From Pseudomonas marginalis (GTDB lineage: Bacteria; Pseudomonadota; Gammaproteobacteria; Pseudomonadales; Pseudomonadaceae): a stretch of DNA of 64,000 bases. Location of the stretch: NCBI RefSeq assembly GCF_001645105.1, contig NZ_LKEG01000033.1:227-64226 (forward strand), given 5' to 3'. The notes beneath the pieces were generated by a model that did no database searches, was not told the DNA's origin, and saw only the letters and a program-made list of their open reading frames with translations. Shown one piece after another: positions 56,166 to 64,000 of this stretch. The stretch's first letter is position 1. Each line of letters opens with the position of its first letter. A program made the position numbers and the translations under genes.

Positions 56166-58328
56166 CTAAGAGGCTTTGACTTTAAAGCGGCTCAGCCCTT
56201 GCTGCATGGCGTTGGCCCGTTCCGACAGGTTCCGCGCGGCCACTGCGCATTGCTGGGAGTTGGTCTGATTTTGCTGAGTGACTTCATCAATTTGCTCCAG
56301 CCCGATACTGGCCTGTTGCAAGCCGGAGGCCTGTTCACTGGAGGCTTGGTAGATCAATGAGACCAGACTGGAAACCGTGCTGGTGCCGGTCACGATGTTT
56401 CTCAATGAATCGGCCGTGCGCCCGGCGATAACCATGCCACGCTGCGTTTTGGTCGAAGAGTCCGCAATCAGCGCCGCTGTTTGCTGGGCTGCTTCGGCGC
56501 TACGGGCGGCGAGGCTCCTGACCTCATCGGCAACCACTGCAAAACCTCGGCCCAACTCCCCGGCGCGTGCAGCCTCGATTGCAGCGTTCAAGGCCAGCAG
56601 GTTGGTTTGGGCGGCGATGTTGTCGATGGTGGTGATGATGGCGGTAATGTCTTTACCCGAGTTGTCGATCTCCGCCATGGCGGCTATCAATTCACTCATC
56701 AGCTTGTCACTTTCACCTGCGTCGGCTCGCGAGGCTTGGGATTGCTCGTCGGCTTTTTTGGCGTTGGCAGCGTTGTCGGTGGTTTGCGCCGCCATTTGGG
56801 TCATGACAGCGCTGATTTCGGTGATGGACGATGCCGAGTTGGATGCGCCGTCGGACAACGACTGGCTCAATTCGGTGACCTGTGCGGAGCTGCCGGTGAT
56901 CTGCGTTGCACTGGCCTGCACTTGGGAAATCAACGCGTTCAAGTTGCCGACCATTTTTTCCAGCGATTTGCCCAACGTGTCGTTGGGGGAGGATAGGCGT
57001 ACCTCCAGGTCCAGGTCTCCCTCGGAAATGCGCTCGGCTACACGGACCTGGCGCTGCAGGCTTTCCGACATGTCGTTCAAGGCGAAGGACAATTGGCCGA
57101 CTTCATCTTCGGATTTTTGCACCAGGCGATGAGAGAAATCGCCCAGGCTGATGTTGGCGGCCAAGGCGGCGGCTTCACGTATCGGGCCGACGATTTTTGC
57201 GGTGGCAAACCAAAGAGCAAGCAATGCCGCTACCGAGATGAGTACGCCGACCGAAACCTGCCATACGCTGCTCTTGAAGCCGCGAGATTGCAATTCCTTC
57301 TCCAGGGCAAGGGCCTGGCTCATGACCACGGCTTTGGGCAAGTGGATCAGTATGGCCCAGGGTTTGTCGGTGCGGCCCAAGGGGATGGGCATCTGCACCT
57401 CGATTTCCTGGGACTCTTGATTGAGTCGGCTATCGCCCTGGCCTTTCTGCACATTGGCCAGCACCTTATCCCAGGTGTTGGGTAGCAACCCCTTCAGTGG
57501 CTGGCCGATCAGTTCCGGCCGTTTACTGTCGGCCACCACCAGCCCTTGATGGCTCACAATCGACACGGAGCCTTTACCGCCGTACAGGTCGGCAGACATT
57601 TGCTCGCTGAGCTTCTGGATAAACGAAATGTCGAAGTCAGCGCCGACGACGCCGTAGAAAGTGCCATTGGCAGTGATTGGAACCGACAGCGTAGTGAGCC
57701 ACACGTTTTTGCCTTGCACCACGTAGGGAATGGGGTCCAGCACGCTTTCCTTCTGGGTATCCCGAGGGCCGGAGTACCAGCCGCCCTTCAATACACCGTT
57801 GGGGTGGCGGGTGTCGGAGTCATACTCGACCAGCGGTTGTACCGCGATGTGGCCATCTGCGCTGCGCGTCCAATAGGGGGTGAAGCGGCCGGTCAATGGG
57901 TTGTTGCCGCCTTCATTGTTACGAAAGGCTTGATCCTGGCCGTCCAGTGCATCCGGCTCCCAGCATGAATACGTGCCGTTGAAGTCCGGGTTGTCTTTGA
58001 GCACGCTGAGCAACATCGCATTGATATGATCACGGCCTAATGTCAGCGAACTGTGTGCATTTTTGCTGGCGCCCAGTGTGTTGGCCAGGGTACGAGCCGA
58101 ATCCAGGGCAGTCTGCAGTTTGGCCTGTATGGCGTTGGCGCGGGACTCCGCCAGGTTTTGCATTTCGCGGATGGTGGCGCTTTCAATCAATGTTGAAACT
58201 TCGGTGCCCACATAGGCTTGATTGGCGTTTGAAGAGTACAGCCCATACAACACCAGACTCGCACATGAGATAAACAGGCAGAGTCCGGCGGTGAAGCAAA
58301 TTCGAGTCTGCAATGATTTGAATTTCAT
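56166..58328 (-). CDS. Methyl-accepting chemotaxis protein with dCache sensor
   Basis: Transmembrane chemoreceptor of 720 aa. The first helix lies at about residues 8-30, a large periplasmic dCache_1 domain follows to about 350, then helix two (about 356-379), a HAMP domain and the MCP signalling domain with the conserved tip [20 protein letters not shown]. The sensor has [21 protein letters not shown] and [17 protein letters not shown], a pattern I associate with amine- or amino-acid-type dCache receptors; the ligand cannot be assigned. It is followed in order by the HD-GYP and cheV genes upstream on the same strand. Confidence 0.9.
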
Positions 58329-58458
58329 GGTATTTCCCGCCCACGCTAATAGTTGTCGACATAATCGGATGTCGACATTCCAATATATTTTTCACGCAAG
58401 GCTTAGTGCTTGATCATGTGCTGCTTAGGCATCGGAATGCTGTACAGCTGTAGAGTGC

Positions 58459-59604
58459 TTAACTCTGTGTGTGCGTATCTTCATCGCGCCATAAACGCTC
58501 GGTATCTTTAAATCCATAACGCTGTGACGGCACGCGCGCAATAATTTTATCGGTCTGGGTGGGGTCGCTCAAATCGATTGTTTTGGGGGTGATGTAGATG
58601 TTTAGAACCGGCAAAAAGAATAATTTGATCTTGGGCGTTAACAGGGAGTGGGCATGTTGCTCAATGACGACACCAATTGTGCCGCTTTTTAGTTGAACGA
58701 TGGACCCGACAGGGTAAATACCCACAGCCTTTAAAAACGCCCGAAACACCTCATCATCAAAATGCCCTTCCCACGTCGACATTTGCTGGATGGCAACGGC
58801 GGGATCCCAACCTTGATTGTAAGAACGGTCCGACGTGACGGCATCATAGACATCACACACAGCGGCCATCCGAGCGAAAAGGCTGATCTGTTCGCCTGCC
58901 AACCGATCCGGGTAACCGGTGCCGTCGAACCGCTCGTGGTGATGCAGGCATACATCCACGACCATTTCGCACACCTGCGATGTGCCCAGCAGGGTTTTCT
59001 CACCTTCCAGCGGATGGGTACGCATCAGTTGCAATTCGTCATCGCTCAGCCGACCTGGCTTGTTCAGCACGGCACCGGGTATGGCCATCTTGCCGATGTC
59101 GTGCAGCAGGCCGGCCAGCCCGACCCTGCGCACCATTGCGGCGGGTAGGGCAAGTTGATTGGCCAGTGCAATCATCAGTGCGCACACGGCGACCGAATGC
59201 ATATAGGTGTAGTCGTCGAGACTTTTCAGGCGTGCCAGGCTGATAAACGCATTGGGATGGCGTGCGATTGAACTTGAAATATCGTCGACCAGCGTACTGA
59301 TGTGTTCAAGCTCGAGGGCTCGGCCCATGCGAGCGTGGCTGAACATCTCGACCACGGCGGTCTTGGCTCGGGCGCAGATGGCCTGTGCAGCGACCAGCTC
59401 CTCTTGCATGGAGGTCGAGGTTATCGGGGGGGCTGTGATGTCCTGCGGTGGGGTCGTCTCAGGCAAGGTGACCGAGTGGGTAGGCTGTACGCCGCAGCCC
59501 AGTGCGCATTGGATAGCCGACTGCGCGTTACGCGCGCGGTCCCGCCAGAAAGGTCTTGCCTCGCTGTCTGGCGCCAGATGGTAGAACTCATTACATTTCA
59601 ACAT
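58459..59604 (-). CDS. HD-GYP c-di-GMP phosphodiesterase
   Basis: Cytosolic protein of 381 aa. The HD motif is HDIGKMAIP (His168-Asp169) and the GYP motif is [11 protein letters not shown] (222-232), both complete, so c-di-GMP hydrolysis to GMP is likely. The N-terminal 70 residues look unstructured, and the C-terminal 100 residues hold a small beta-rich domain ([17 protein letters not shown]). It lies between cheV and a chemoreceptor gene, linking c-di-GMP to chemotaxis. Confidence 0.9.
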
Positions 59605-59679
59605 GATATTACCTCTGTTGATTTGTTCTTATACGTTTCTTGCTAGCCTCCTTGGCTTGGGTGTTGTCGGGCTAACGCT

Positions 59680-60612
59680 TCAGTTCGGATGTGCAGCCTT
59701 GATGCGCGTAACAACGCGCCCGGCCAGGTCGTCGGGGCGAAACTTGGCCAGGAAGTCATCGGCGCCCACTTTCTTGACCATGGCTTGGTTGAACCCGCCG
59801 GAGAGCGAGGTGTGCAGCACAATGTGCAGCTTGGCCATGCGCGGGTCGTTACGGATTTCGGCAGTCAGGGTATAGCCGTCCATCTCTGGCATTTCGATGT
59901 CGGAGATCATCATCAGAAACTCCTCCTCCGGCTTGCGTCCCTCGTCGAGCATGGATCGCAGGTAATCAAGCGCTTGTCGACCGTCATTTAAGGCAACCAC
60001 CTCGACACCAACGGTTTCCAAGCAGCGTGTCACCTGTTTACGCGCGACGAGGGAGTCATCCACGGTCAGGACACGCAGGTGTCTGGCCCGCAGGGTGACC
60101 TCGTGATCCACCACGCCGCTGGATATTTCCTCGGACGATGGCGATATTTCAGTCAGTACTTTTTCAACGTCAATAATCTCGACCAGACGATCATCCGCAT
60201 GGGTCACGGCCGTCAGGTAATTGTGTTCACCACTGCCCTTGGGCGGTGGATGAATGTCTTCCCAGTTCAAATTGACGATGTGCTCAACCGCATAGACGAG
60301 GAAACCTTGAACGCGGTTGTTGTACTCCGTAAGTATGATAAAAGCACTTTCCTGGTCTTGTACGCCTGGCAGTCCAGTGGCCATGGCGAGGTCTAGAATA
60401 GGAATGCAGGCGCCTCGAATATTGGCAACGCCACAGATATTGTTATTAGACTTTGGTAGTAGAGATAACTTTGGGCAACGTATAACTTCTCGAACTTTAA
60501 AAACGTTGATCCCGTACAGCTGGAGGTTGTTGAACCTGAAGAGTAGCAGCTCAAGCCGGTTCTGACCGACCAGTTGTGTGCGACTGTTAACGGATGCCAA
60601 TACACCTGTCAT
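59680..60612 (-). CDS. cheV: Chemotaxis coupling protein CheV
   Basis: Protein of 310 aa with an N-terminal CheW-like domain (about 18-155) and a C-terminal response-regulator receiver domain (about 178-305). The phosphorylated aspartate is Asp238 in SDIEMPEMDG. The ATG at 60612 is preceded by AAGGAG; a GTG two codons earlier is less likely. CheV couples receptors to CheA with phosphorylation-dependent tuning. It is the first gene of the cheV/HD-GYP/MCP block. Confidence 0.92.
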   Translation of the reverse strand: MTGVLASVNSRTQLVGQNRLELLLFRFNNLQLYGINVFKVREVIRCPKLSLLPKSNNNICGVANIRGACIPILDLAMATGLPGVQDQESAFIILTEYNNRVQGFLVYAVEHIVNLNWEDIHPPPKGSGEHNYLTAVTHADDRLVEIIDVEKVLTEISPSSEEISSGVVDHEVTLRARHLRVLTVDDSLVARKQVTRCLETVGVEVVALNDGRQALDYLRSMLDEGRKPEEEFLMMISDIEMPEMDGYTLTAEIRNDPRMAKLHIVLHTSLSGGFNQAMVKKVGADDFLAKFRPDDLAGRVVTRIKAAHPN

Positions 60613-60967
60613 ACACACTCCTTTAGCTCGGCTGACAGCGTTGATGCCGTAATGACACTATCCTATGTAGGGCTATGTAAAAGATATGTGAAAATAAATA
60701 AATCTTGGGTTTATCGTTAAAGCGATATGAAATTAATTGGTTGTCTATTCGGATGAGTGTTTGAAATGGTTAGTTGGCTAACTTATTGGTGCTATTGTTG
60801 AGAACGATTTAGAACGGCAGTTTCATACTGCGTGTGTTGTCCGTTCAGTACAGGACGCGTCATTTAACTTTGTTAAGCGGCGGTTGTGCAGCGGGCCGGT
60901 GCGGACACCCAGCGCGCGCCTCGTGCTGTAGCGAATATCGGCTTGCTGCTGGGCTTTTTGTCCCCAT
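60613..60967. other. Gene-free AT-rich stretch upstream of cheV
   Basis: This part of the 1.1-kb gap before the WYL gene contains the cheV leader and an AT-rich run (about 60640-60830) with no intact gene on either strand. It probably holds the cheV promoter and marks a boundary between core and accessory DNA. Confidence 0.5.
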
Positions 60968-61300: not shown

Positions 61301-61413
61301 CGTGTTGCCGAGGGCTGCCGCTGTTGCCATCTGGAATGCCAACGCGCCTGGAACTCACAAACCTTGCAAAGCCCCCTAAGCGCTGAAGCCCTGCATTTAC
61401 TGGATGTCAGGCA

Positions 61414-61443
61414 TAAAAAAAGACGTCCAAGGACGTCTTTTTT
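61414..61443. terminator. Bidirectional terminator in the eroded stretch
   Basis: AAAAAAAGACGTCC-AA-GGACGTCTTTTTT, a perfect stem with A- and T-runs on the two sides. No intact gene ends here now, which fits loss of the gene it served. The remaining bases to 61767 hold an 8-bp inverted repeat GGTCGCCC/GGGCGACC (61578-61599) and no intact gene. Confidence 0.75.
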
Positions 61444-61767
61444 CGTTGAAGTGCCGGGGTAATCTGAATTAGGTCGGTAACATGTTGATTAATTGGGTGA
61501 ATTCCGGTTTGTATTTTAAGCTGGAATACCGATTGGAATACTGCGAGAAGTGTTCCTGGCCTGCCGATGACCAGCTCGGTCGCCCGCTGTAGGGCGACCC
61601 TTGGTCCAAGCGCGGTCACTGAGCTAAACGACTACGAGATAACACGCATCACCCCACAATGTGTCCGGGTTATCCAGCATCAGCAGAATGATGACCGGAA
61701 CTAGCTTGCCGAGCAGGTTGGCGCAGTCACGCAGTTGATCTCGGTTGACGCTGCTAAGATCCAAGCG

Positions 61768-62643
61768 TCAGTATTTCATCAACCACGGCTGCAGTTCCTG
61801 GAGGTTGTTCACCACCAGTTGCTGGGCCTCGGGAAGTATCGCCATGTTGCGGTGGTCAATCTGGTACCGCTGCAACACATACTTCACCAATGCCCTGCGG
61901 CTTGGCACCACCAATTGCCCCTGCGTCATGCCGTAGTCGGTTTCGATGATTGCCTTCTGCGCCTCGTTCAACCGCCCATCAGGCGCGAAGATGACCGGCA
62001 CCTCGACATTCCAGTCTTTATCCTGCTCGCGCGTGTTCGGTGAAACGTCGAGCAAGTCTGGCTGCCCACGCAGGCGGCTAAGGACGAAGTCGCGGTATTG
62101 GCCGTTCTTTTCGCAATAGGCTCGCACGTGCCAGCGCATACCGGTGTAGACCAGTGTGTGGGGGGCGATCAGGCGCACCTCGACATTGGGGGTGTTGAAG
62201 GACACGTATTCGGTTTCCAGGCGCAGGCCTTCACGGCAGGCCTTGAGCAAAGGGCGCAGTACCTCTGGCCGAATGGGGCGGTCAGGCACTTCCAGTACCC
62301 GGGTGTGCGCATACGCCAGAGCCAGCCCGTCGATGTGCGGGGCGCGCTCATTGTTCTGGTAGAGCAGGTGCAGGTAGGCGCTGGCGCTGTTGTCGATGAA
62401 CAGCGGCTTGAAATGCTTGCTCGGCACATAGCCCTTGAGCTGCTTGTCATATGTCAAGTTTTTGGGCGCATGTTCGGTGATGTACGTATTGATGTCCTTA
62501 GACGCCTGCTGGCGGCTGATGCCAAAGCTCTGCATCAGGTGGCCCGTGGTCAGCCGGCCTTCCCACCAGGCAACGGTCTCGATCAAGCGATAGCGAAGTG
62601 CCAGGTCCCAGCGTACCCGCTCGATGGATTGCTTGCGTTTCAT
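61768..62643 (-). CDS. WYL-domain transcriptional regulator (BrxR/CapW type)
   Basis: Protein of 291 aa. An N-terminal winged helix (about 10-75, SFGISRQQASKDINTYITEHAP) is followed by NLTYDKQLKGYVPSKHFKPLF, a WYL domain (about 125-200, GMRWHVRAYCEKNGQYRDFVLSRL) and a C-terminal WCX-like extension. This layout and the linker sequence match BrxR and CapW, repressors that guard BREX and CBASS phage-defence loci and sense a nucleic-acid-type ligand. It is divergent from the small coiled-coil gene and the dynamin-like gene, with two inverted repeats in the shared promoter. Confidence 0.85.
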   Translation of the reverse strand: MKRKQSIERVRWDLALRYRLIETVAWWEGRLTTGHLMQSFGISRQQASKDINTYITEHAPKNLTYDKQLKGYVPSKHFKPLFIDNSASAYLHLLYQNNERAPHIDGLALAYAHTRVLEVPDRPIRPEVLRPLLKACREGLRLETEYVSFNTPNVEVRLIAPHTLVYTGMRWHVRAYCEKNGQYRDFVLSRLRGQPDLLDVSPNTREQDKDWNVEVPVIFAPDGRLNEAQKAIIETDYGMTQGQLVVPSRRALVKYVLQRYQIDHRNMAILPEAQQLVVNNLQELQPWLMKY

Positions 62644-62679
62644 ACCCTCTCCATGTGCGCGATTACTTTACCTGTATAA

Positions 62680-62712
62680 GTCTACATTCTAGACGTGTAA
62701 TTTCACATTACA
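62680..62712. promoter_or_regulatory. Two adjacent inverted repeats in the divergent promoter
   Basis: GTCTA-cattc-TAGAC (62680-62694) and TGTAAT-ttcac-ATTACA (62696-62712) are perfect inverted repeats, one base apart and each with a 5-bp spacer. They lie between the WYL regulator start (62643) and the small gene start (62763). They are the best operator candidates for the WYL regulator. Confidence 0.6.
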
Positions 62713-62762
62713 TATCTTTCGCTTGTCTTTGGAATACTTCGCAGGCAGCAAAGGATATGAGT

Positions 62763-63020
62763 ATGGCTATGCCGGAAGTGGTTGCGACGGGTGCATTGGT
62801 GGCGATGGGGATCATCCTGCTGGTGCTGATTCAGCAGGGGTTAAAGCTCGGCGAGCTTGGGAAGACGGTGGAGCACTGCCAGAGGGATCTGCGCTGGTTG
62901 CAGATTTGGGAGATGGAGAATAGTGAGCTGCGGTCAGCGTTGCGGGCGGAGCGAGAGCATGTGGTGCAGTTGCGGCGCAAGTGTGAGTTGCTGGAGGCGT
63001 TGGTGCCGGTTGCGGAGTGA
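62763..63020 (+). CDS. Small membrane-anchored coiled-coil protein
   Basis: Protein of 85 aa, not recognised. The ATG at 62763 has AAGGA 7 bp before it; ATG at 62757 is too close to that site. Residues 5-27 (VVATGALVAMGIILLVLIQQG) form one membrane helix; about 30-80 is a charged coiled coil (ENSELRSALRAEREHVVQLRRK). It lies between the WYL regulator and the dynamin-like gene, 243 bp before the latter; a role as membrane partner of the GTPase is speculative. The 243-bp gap shows no clear feature. Confidence 0.65.
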   Translation: MAMPEVVATGALVAMGIILLVLIQQGLKLGELGKTVEHCQRDLRWLQIWEMENSELRSALRAEREHVVQLRRKCELLEALVPVAE

Positions 63021-63263
63021 TCAGCGGCAATGGATTGAGTAGCGTGCCGTTCAGGGCGTTTGCATAGCGGGCTATCGCCATGTCTGGGGTGGCGTGGTCA
63101 GGGTTATGCCGCTCTTTGTTTGCCCACTGGCAATCGTGATTTGAGTTCACAGTAGGTTGCTGTCATTTTGATATTATCGGCGTGACGAAGATAGGCCGCT
63201 TGTCTGCGGTAGGCGTTTTACGGATGACTAGAGGCCAATGGTGCCTCGCGCAAGGAGTTTTTG

Positions 63264-64000
63264 ATGCAGGAACAATCGATAGATCTGCTACGTGATGAAG
63301 CTCGTAGGCTTCTAAGCTTGGAACTAGGCTTGCTGCATCACGTGCAGGAAGGCGAAGGTGTGCTGTCTGATGATCAGGGTGATGAGCATCAGACCTTCAG
63401 CAAAGCGAATGTCATCCAAGAGATTGGTTACCTCGAAGGCGAGCTGGTCAAAGTCGGCGAATTGAAGATGGTCCTGGCCGTGGTCGGCACCATGAAGGCC
63501 GGTAAATCGACCACAATCAATGCCATCGTTGGACATGAAGTGCTGCCTAACCGCAACCGGCCAATGACTGCGTTGCCGACTTTGATCGAGCACACCCCTG
63601 GCCAAGTCGAGCCAGTGTTGGAGCTGAAAAACTGCAAGCCGATCAACGACCTCATTGTGCAGCTTGGCAAAGTAATCTCATCTGACCGAGGTGACGCGGT
63701 GCTGCAGAATCTGGAGCGTACCGATGACATGCTTGACCTGCTGAAGCTGATTGATCAGCGGGGAAGTTTCAAAGCGCTATATGAGGGGTCGGAAAATATC
63801 TTCTGGTTCCTCAAAAGCCTGAACGATTTGGTACGGCTTGCGGCGTTTCTGGGGGTGGACTTCCCCTTTGGCAGCTACTCCAGTATCGACGATTACCCTG
63901 TCATCCGCATCGAATTTTCTCATCTCGGCCAGGCGGCGGGTCAGGGTAAATTGGCATTGCTCGATACACCCGGCCCCAATGAGGCGGGCCAGCAGCATCT
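63264..64000 (+). CDS. Dynamin-like GTPase, CrfC/YjdA family (partial, runs off window)
   Basis: The first 245 codons of a large GTPase; the frame is still open at the window end. The ATG at 63264 follows AAGGAG by 6 bp. The P-loop GTMKAGKST is at 75-83 (Lys81), the next segment NRNRPMTALPTLIEHTPGQ matches the G2 region, and the G3 motif DTPG is at 234-237. The sequence agrees closely with my memory of E. coli CrfC (YjdA), a dynamin-like protein linked to the replication clamp and to chromosome colocalisation. Full relatives are about 740 aa. Confidence 0.88.
   Translation, partial: MQEQSIDLLRDEARRLLSLELGLLHHVQEGEGVLSDDQGDEHQTFSKANVIQEIGYLEGELVKVGELKMVLAVVGTMKAGKSTTINAIVGHEVLPNRNRPMTALPTLIEHTPGQVEPVLELKNCKPINDLIVQLGKVISSDRGDAVLQNLERTDDMLDLLKLIDQRGSFKALYEGSENIFWFLKSLNDLVRLAAFLGVDFPFGSYSSIDDYPVIRIEFSHLGQAAGQGKLALLDTPGPNEAGQQH

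Follow-up and report, generated by a model that had tools for sequence, protein, structure and literature searches.

Which genes does a defence-type repressor serve when it stands divergent from a relative of the Escherichia coli dynamin-like GTPase CrfC? The question is raised by the right edge of a 64,000-nt stretch of Pseudomonas marginalis DNA (the window; C32:227-64226, C32 being contig NZ_LKEG01000033.1 of the 6.6-Mb assembly GCF_001645105.1, so that a window position equals the C32 position minus 226), where an earlier note, made from the sequence alone, had described an accessory locus composed of a BrxR/CapW-type WYL regulator, a divergent and unrecognised membrane coiled-coil gene, and a CrfC relative cut by the window end. 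All three genes have been borne out, but not the unit that they were thought to form: the conserved unit consists of the CrfC relative and two genes hidden by the window end, which encode an RdcB protein and a patatin-like phospholipase. This dynamin-RdcB-patatin trio is a real, conserved and mobile three-gene module, often found in defence company with a defence-type repressor. Together with the WYL regulatory cassette, the trio makes up a mobile five-gene block, and with a confidence slightly better than even we read it as a candidate abortive-infection system in which the GTPase pair licenses the phospholipase.

The dynamin-RdcB-patatin trio and its core relatives

The dynamin gene begins with an ATG at 63264 on the plus strand and reaches past the window end to C32:65910. 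Its 806-aa product scores 64.1 bits against Dynamin_N (cut-off 27) and 571.9 bits against the NCBIfam CrfC model NF007368, under the cut-off of 1146, which makes it a CrfC/RdcA-like GTPase below the level of an equivalog. The expectation that further genes may follow has been confirmed by a 302-aa RdcB/YjcZ protein (C32:65907-66815), a member of PF13990 at 188.3 bits (cut-off 27), by a 359-aa protein that its PF01734 score of 104.9 bits (cut-off 27.7) and its catalytic residues assign to the patatin-like phospholipases (C32:66812-67891), and by the rest of an island. Dynamin and RdcB genes overlap by 4 bp, as do RdcB and patatin genes. In the patatin, S42 and D225 of the predicted Ser-Asp dyad and the motifs GGGAxG, GxSIG and DGG are invariant in all ten aligned rows, and the dynamin motifs MKAGKST, DTPGPNE and NKxD are so in 12/12 rows. 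The ratio of nonsynonymous to synonymous substitution (dN/dS) has been found at 0.077-0.240 across 12 comparisons. By these sequence measures the trio is under purifying selection and retains its catalytic and nucleotide-binding residues. Identity to the Klebsiella oxytoca copy amounts to 49% for the patatin, 40% for the dynamin and 42% for RdcB. Among solved structures the patatin comes nearest to PlpD (E 1e-19) and reaches the cUMP-AMP-activated phospholipase only at E 6e-5; single-sequence AlphaFold models were unusable (mean pLDDT 45.8 for RdcB and 36.2 for the dynamin).

A scan of 298 genomes of the genus at E <1e-30 has located the dynamin in five, our own included; with the P. juntendi BML3 contig (L014 in our numbering of loci) this yields six genus loci. 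Dynamin, RdcB and patatin stand in this order at all six, with the 4-bp dynamin-RdcB overlap at every locus and the 4-bp RdcB-patatin overlap at four, the irregular copies being L011, in which RdcB and WYL genes are frame-broken, and L013, in which the patatin start is uncertain. The recurrent WYL and coiled-coil neighbours that the earlier note had looked for are thus found in part: this WYL gene lies close by at four of the six loci (our own, the frame-broken L011, L012 and L014), and the small gene at three. PF13990 has been detected in our own genome alone among 369 of the class, while alignment A2 has identified 6/398 genomes of the phylum, five of them from a family (f188) whose core-type crfC-rdcB loci suggest that it is Enterobacteriaceae.

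Beyond the genus, a dynamin search of plasmids has returned 42 records, 12 of which were inspected. Six carry the annotated trio (L016, L017, L018, L086, L021, L088), and in an unannotated record (L122) the dynamin and the patatin are both matched, correctly spaced; the remainder are broken copies (L019, L087), core pairs (L020, L043) and a fragment (L022). The trio-bearing plasmids come from Klebsiella, E. coli and, in two cases, Nostoc, and that of L018 is conjugative. The trio also occurs in enterobacterial islands. When 5426 complete E. coli genomes were searched, 2426 had at least 80% of its DNA at one place; a place of this kind may be split by an insertion sequence, and the tally of as many as five places in a genome takes in fragments. 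Almost all of these places (3384/3385) are chromosomal. The five chromosomal places that we inspected all lie beside a GTPase gene, two also beside cah, and precede genes of the YeeS/CbeA/CbtA type; their borders vary between tRNA-Ser, tRNA-Ile and yeeA. At one of them, L085, the patatin is incomplete. A pattern-based scan of viral contigs has revealed no dynamin relative; seven patatin-like matches in viral contigs are short or distant, and RdcB was unmatched in phage records, in which dynamin and patatin were not searched.

The region of CrfC that carries an N-terminal clamp-binding motif differs from the N-terminal region of our dynamin in alignment A1. The earlier note knew CrfC from chromosome work, which holds once a second role is added: in the available part of PMC6510439, E. 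coli CrfC is RdcA, a soluble, cytoplasmic activator of the cyclase DgcE that binds RdcB and activates DgcE through contact with its MASE1 domain in a manner requiring GTP hydrolysis. At E 1e-6, MASE1 has been found in all five core-type f188 genomes, four or five times each; the five genus carriers examined (G222 being 78% complete, P. juntendi not searched) gave no match, where a CrfC/RdcA equivalog would be expected to have a MASE1 cyclase to act on. With the NF007368 cut-off missed as well, we have rejected the trio dynamin as a true CrfC. The failure to find MASE1 in these five carriers makes the linked phospholipase the natural client candidate, and the patatin would be the client of dynamin and RdcB here.

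The core crfC-rdcB pair of E. coli, at least 80% covered in 5354/5426 complete genomes, shares with the trio the arrangement of a dynamin GTPase and its partner in overlapping genes (yjdA-yjcZ), with 34-37% identity in the dynamin and 24-32% in the partner. The mobile form is patatin-linked, whereas the core pair, which acts on DgcE through MASE1, lacks a patatin at each of seven loci examined (L020, L043, L115-L119), and no relative of the window's patatin has been found within the 14 kb fetched at the five core-type f188 loci. Core RdcA groups apart from the accessory form. The dynamin tree leaves unsettled whether core RdcA falls inside or outside the patatin-linked group (54/62). In the RdcB tree, core RdcB falls together with enterobacterial accessory copies (89/90), the Nostoc branches being long, and the patatin tree is poorly supported. 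A descent of the core pair from a patatin-linked form is accordingly favoured by the RdcB tree and left open by that of the dynamin; with the patatin present on two Nostoc plasmids, the linked state looks old.

The WYL cassette, its intergenic element and its neighbourhoods

The WYL gene (61768-62643, minus strand) encodes a 291-aa protein that scores 49.7 bits against Pfam WYL (cut-off 21.8) and matches the solved BrxR 7t8k (phmmer E 8.5e-65, residues 12-262) and Stenotrophomonas maltophilia CapW (E 5.3e-42, residues 8-289), so that the relation to the BrxR/CapW family spans most of its length. Divergent from it lies the gene of an 87-aa protein (62757-63020, plus strand) in which a single N-terminal hydrophobic stretch and a charged, heptad-like tail have been judged by eye, and for which no family scored over any cut-off. 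WYL relatives at E <1e-70 occupy 85 places in 70 of the 298 genus genomes. The small gene accompanies 29 of the 30 best WYL loci (as a displaced or partial match in L053, L057 and L061); it belongs with the WYL gene, and we have rejected it as a partner of the dynamin.

Between the divergent genes, a 32-locus alignment and a dyad scan have delimited an unstranded conserved element at 62667-62712. It holds a first dyad, GTCTA-CATTC-TAGAC (62680-62694), followed in our own copy by a second, TGTAATTT-C-ACATTACA (62696-62712). A few of the 32 aligned loci have clearly diverged. The first dyad and its flank recur unaltered at 19 of the 30 best WYL loci, and the dyad occurs once in our genome at up to two mismatches, compared with zero hits for the reversed control. 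The element probably represents the WYL operator together with the divergent promoters, its two dyads being predicted sites of the kind that lies upstream of BrxR genes. According to the available part of PMC9122601, such inverted repeats precede 193 of 347 BrxR homologues and hence are not universal, and in the published BrxR site arms of 11 bp flank a spacer of 5 bp; the arms of both dyads here are shorter than 11 bp. Conserved dyads between divergent genes make it plausible that the WYL protein controls the dynamin.

The company of the cassette has been read at 20 loci, with system names taken from PADLOC (version 2023) and NCBIfam labels. Eleos genes are found nearby (LeoA at 858 bits in L100, LeoBC at 575 bits in L097), as is Zorya I (ZorA1 at 1290 bits in L095). 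Tandem dynamin-like genes lie at L099, L101, L104 and L105, and in the two of these that were searched, L099 and L101, PADLOC has found no full Eleos pair. GTPase sets have been identified by Pfam at L095 and L109, to which L108, L111 and L112 look alike; L096 has a type III methyltransferase, and several cassette loci have nothing recognised. An ADP-ribosylglycohydrolase-like gene follows the cassette at L100, L101, L102, L104, L105, L107 and L011, confirmed by Pfam in L011 and L101 and elsewhere recognised by the look of the sequence.

Across the 70 WYL-bearing genomes, 62 Dynamin_N places condense to 46 clusters, 18 of them no more than 20 kb from a cassette, compared with ~0.4 expected by random placement; leaving out the trio carriers G000, G009 and G034, 15 of 43 are as close. 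The calculation assumes a genome size of 6 Mb and related genomes are not independent, so that its P value is indicative only. Seen from the cassette, a dynamin stands within 20 kb at 19 of the 85 places, namely 12 of the 21 cassettes at least 85% identical to that of the window and 7 of the 64 others. Away from the cassette there are 30 dynamin places; 22 of them, with scores of 50-55 bits, may belong to a single family, and one is the trio of G222.

One cassette neighbourhood contains a natural patatin-dynamin fusion. The gene (L123:10682-14395, corresponding to G105:C203:76681-80394, minus strand) lies beside the WYL cassette and further dynamin genes and encodes a single chain of 1238 aa, in which residues 12-192 match Patatin (81.8 bits) and residues 722-883 match Dynamin_N (60.2 bits). 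Its patatin part shares 29.5% identity with the window patatin over 322 aa (E 1e-21). No RdcB has been recognised at the fusion locus, which hence is no copy of the trio. The fusion supports a joint function of patatin and dynamin.

Island borders and the defence-like company

The accessory character of the locus has been confirmed, as core genes do not follow it directly: near the right edge of the window begins a mobile island of ~31.7 kb, which extends from C32:61679 to the tmRNA gene ssrA (C32:93386-93782), off the window, beyond which the genes are read as core metabolism. The degraded stretch that the earlier note took as a sign of an insertion site indeed contains an attL-like copy of the flank that follows the ssrA terminator region (~61332-61443, unstranded), which marks where the island ends on the left. 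The copy matches the ssrA flank of our own genome at 92% over 49 bp, aligns locally over a longer distance with L003 (13265-13379), and has a 129-bp match at 81% with an ssrA-adjacent stretch of genome G031 (L038). At the ssrA border, eight other genomes share with ours the ssrA flank and some of the recombinase sequence but none of the cargo (blastn), and in G034 (L011) the module likewise lies inside an ssrA island.

Within the island the five-gene block has its own limits. A 104-bp direct repeat (copy A, 61652-61755, unstranded) recurs at 84% 6381 bp to the right, beyond the patatin gene (copy B, C32:68259-68362, off the window); A and B bracket the block, and no further site has been found in our genome. 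Homology to the P. juntendi contig, which carries the five-gene block with a dynamin 97% identical to ours, begins at 61453 in a BLASTN comparison with L014 (left edge of the shared block, unstranded) and stops just beyond the patatin (L002 position 7968), so that what the two share is the five-gene stretch from the WYL gene through the patatin gene, without the GmrSD and helicase genes. A one-sequence search of genome contigs has returned nothing beyond the P. juntendi contig.

After the patatin follow ~640 bp, a hypothetical protein of 260 aa, two GmrSD-type proteins, the second with GmrSD_C, a DrmD-like SNF2 helicase, a 1651-aa Eco57I-type methyltransferase, a 2145-aa DruE-like helicase and a UvrD-like helicase, then two integrase-type recombinases and ssrA. 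The section from the 260-aa gene to the UvrD-like helicase (C32:68529-89640, window-equivalent 68303-89414) is, by its gene content, a probable second defence block; it has parts reminiscent of DISARM, Druantia, type IIG and type IV systems, no single one of which fits by eye. In G003 (L095, G003:C1:614000-626600), genes 90-94% identical to our 260-aa, GmrS-like and GmrSD genes stand between two GTPase genes and Zorya I, and these three look like another exchangeable cassette. Type I restriction-modification (R-M) genes lie within ~6 kb of the module at L011, L012 and L013. Similar genes are found upstream of the dynamin at L010 (11434-12846) and L011 (6301-7203), the L010 copy being the one searched and without a Pfam or PADLOC match. 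At the left edge of the island, window positions 56166-60618 hold a CheW-response regulator fusion, to the left of which lie HD-GYP-like and chemoreceptor-like genes, both by the look of the sequence; in G004, a block related to this one is followed by a repeat resembling the ssrA flank.

Abortive infection as a proposed role, and its rivals

Among known systems, Eleos consists of a LeoA and LeoBC pair and is likewise built on dynamin-like genes, with the same WYL cassette near its loci L097 and L100. The trio has a single dynamin, on which both the LeoA (42 bits) and LeoBC (38.6 bits) matches fall, and RdcB and patatin replace the second dynamin; no second one has been found among the island proteins searched, and we have rejected an assignment to Eleos. 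CBASS, whose effector stands next to a CD-NTase, shares a patatin effector (CapV) and a BrxR/CapW-family regulator (CapW) with our locus, which has dynamin and RdcB in place of the cyclase; this assignment was likewise rejected, as no CD-NTase domain has been found among the island proteins searched. DynA of Bacillus subtilis is not known to have a patatin or RdcB partner. It too is a bacterial dynamin linked to phage tolerance, and is described in the available part of PMC8844932 as delaying phage lysis and seeming to support membrane integrity. A description of dynamin, RdcB and patatin as one system has not been found in the open-access PMC literature, most subscription papers and preprints lying outside it, and may exist elsewhere; the available text of PMC13182975 names patatins and 'rdcB' among the genes of an E. 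coli island, and the words dynamin and patatin are absent from the accessible part of a 2026 BREX survey (PMC12839542).

The reading that we prefer joins a regulatory cassette (WYL protein, palindromic element and small protein) to a dynamin/RdcB/patatin effector module. The WYL protein would keep expression low until derepression, and the complex of GTPase and RdcB would hold the phospholipase or sense infection. Upon phage infection, GTP-dependent assembly would release or recruit the phospholipase, which would cut membrane lipids, so that the infected cell stops. Gene order, intact residues, purifying selection, mobility, defence neighbours and the natural fusion are the observed basis of this scheme; binding of RdcA to RdcB and client activation dependent on GTP hydrolysis are known for relatives only, while the patatin as client, membrane damage as the outcome and phage as the trigger are what we infer. 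The fusion has moved our confidence from even to just above it.

Several observations weigh against the scheme. Protection from phage is deduced from genomic context, and the PADLOC models fail to recognise the trio (LeoA at 42 bits for the dynamin, a CBASS-type effector at 23.7 bits for the patatin, nothing for RdcB). In E. coli the neighbours are the GTPase gene, Cah and YeeS/CbeA/CbtA-type genes, with type I R-M solely at L085 among the five places. L010 lacks such a WYL gene, and neither of the two neighbours searched there has a family match. On two Klebsiella plasmids the patatin adjoins IS26 without dynamin and RdcB. A terminator-like hairpin (63086-63115), not above chance, could separate the small gene from the dynamin; a special structure of the RNA between these genes has been rejected (z 0.03). 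Among the 12 closest cassettes that have a dynamin nearby, the dynamin genes are co-directed with the small gene in six and opposed in six, so that the association is positional and simple operon control is not general. The fusion, finally, occurs in 1 of 298 genus genomes, and its sole plasmid match (Moraxella osloensis) covers the dynamin part, with no patatin found beside that relative.

Since RdcA and RdcB activate DgcE in E. coli (PMC6510439, available part), the mobile pair could instead serve a surface lifestyle by acting on cyclic di-GMP (c-di-GMP) and biofilm signalling, with the patatin remodelling lipids for envelope adaptation and not for killing. The position of the E. coli module after the autotransporter gene cah or the GTPase gene agrees with this, but the five genus carriers searched gave no match to the docking domain MASE1 (another docking site being possible), no GGDEF domain has been found among the island proteins searched, and restriction systems, Eleos and Zorya lie near the WYL cassette; we consider such a role unlikely. 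It is still harder to picture a membrane-repair function as in DynA, in which the module would maintain the envelope under stress and delay lysis indirectly, as the DynA phenotype (PMC8844932, in part) would allow: E. coli RdcA is soluble and cytoplasmic in the available text of PMC6510439, and a patchy, island-borne spread under a defence-type repressor suits a costly effector better than a housekeeping gene. We judge it very improbable that the block acts against plasmids or in competition between elements, or that it is a stability gene of islands and plasmids. Copies do occur on plasmids, one of them conjugative (L018), and the islands with E. coli copies also contain the CbeA/CbtA pair; yet no antitoxin-like gene has been recognised in the block, most copies are chromosomal in the E. 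coli search, and broken copies persist on plasmids.

Taking the abortive-infection reading one step further, RdcA/CrfC-RdcB-patatin may be a widespread, unnamed abortive-infection system from which the housekeeping RdcA-RdcB-DgcE arose by a swap of client from phospholipase to cyclase. We put this forward tentatively, the fusion having raised our confidence in it by a small step that leaves it short of even. If true, the trio carried by nearly half of the complete E. coli genomes would have an overlooked immune function, the pair that serves c-di-GMP signalling in E. coli would be the tamed relative of a defence module, and the locus would offer a direct test case for a soluble dynamin controlling a client enzyme. 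The cassette of WYL protein and membrane peptide with its own dyads would then serve, within the genus, as a marker for finding further dynamin-type loci.

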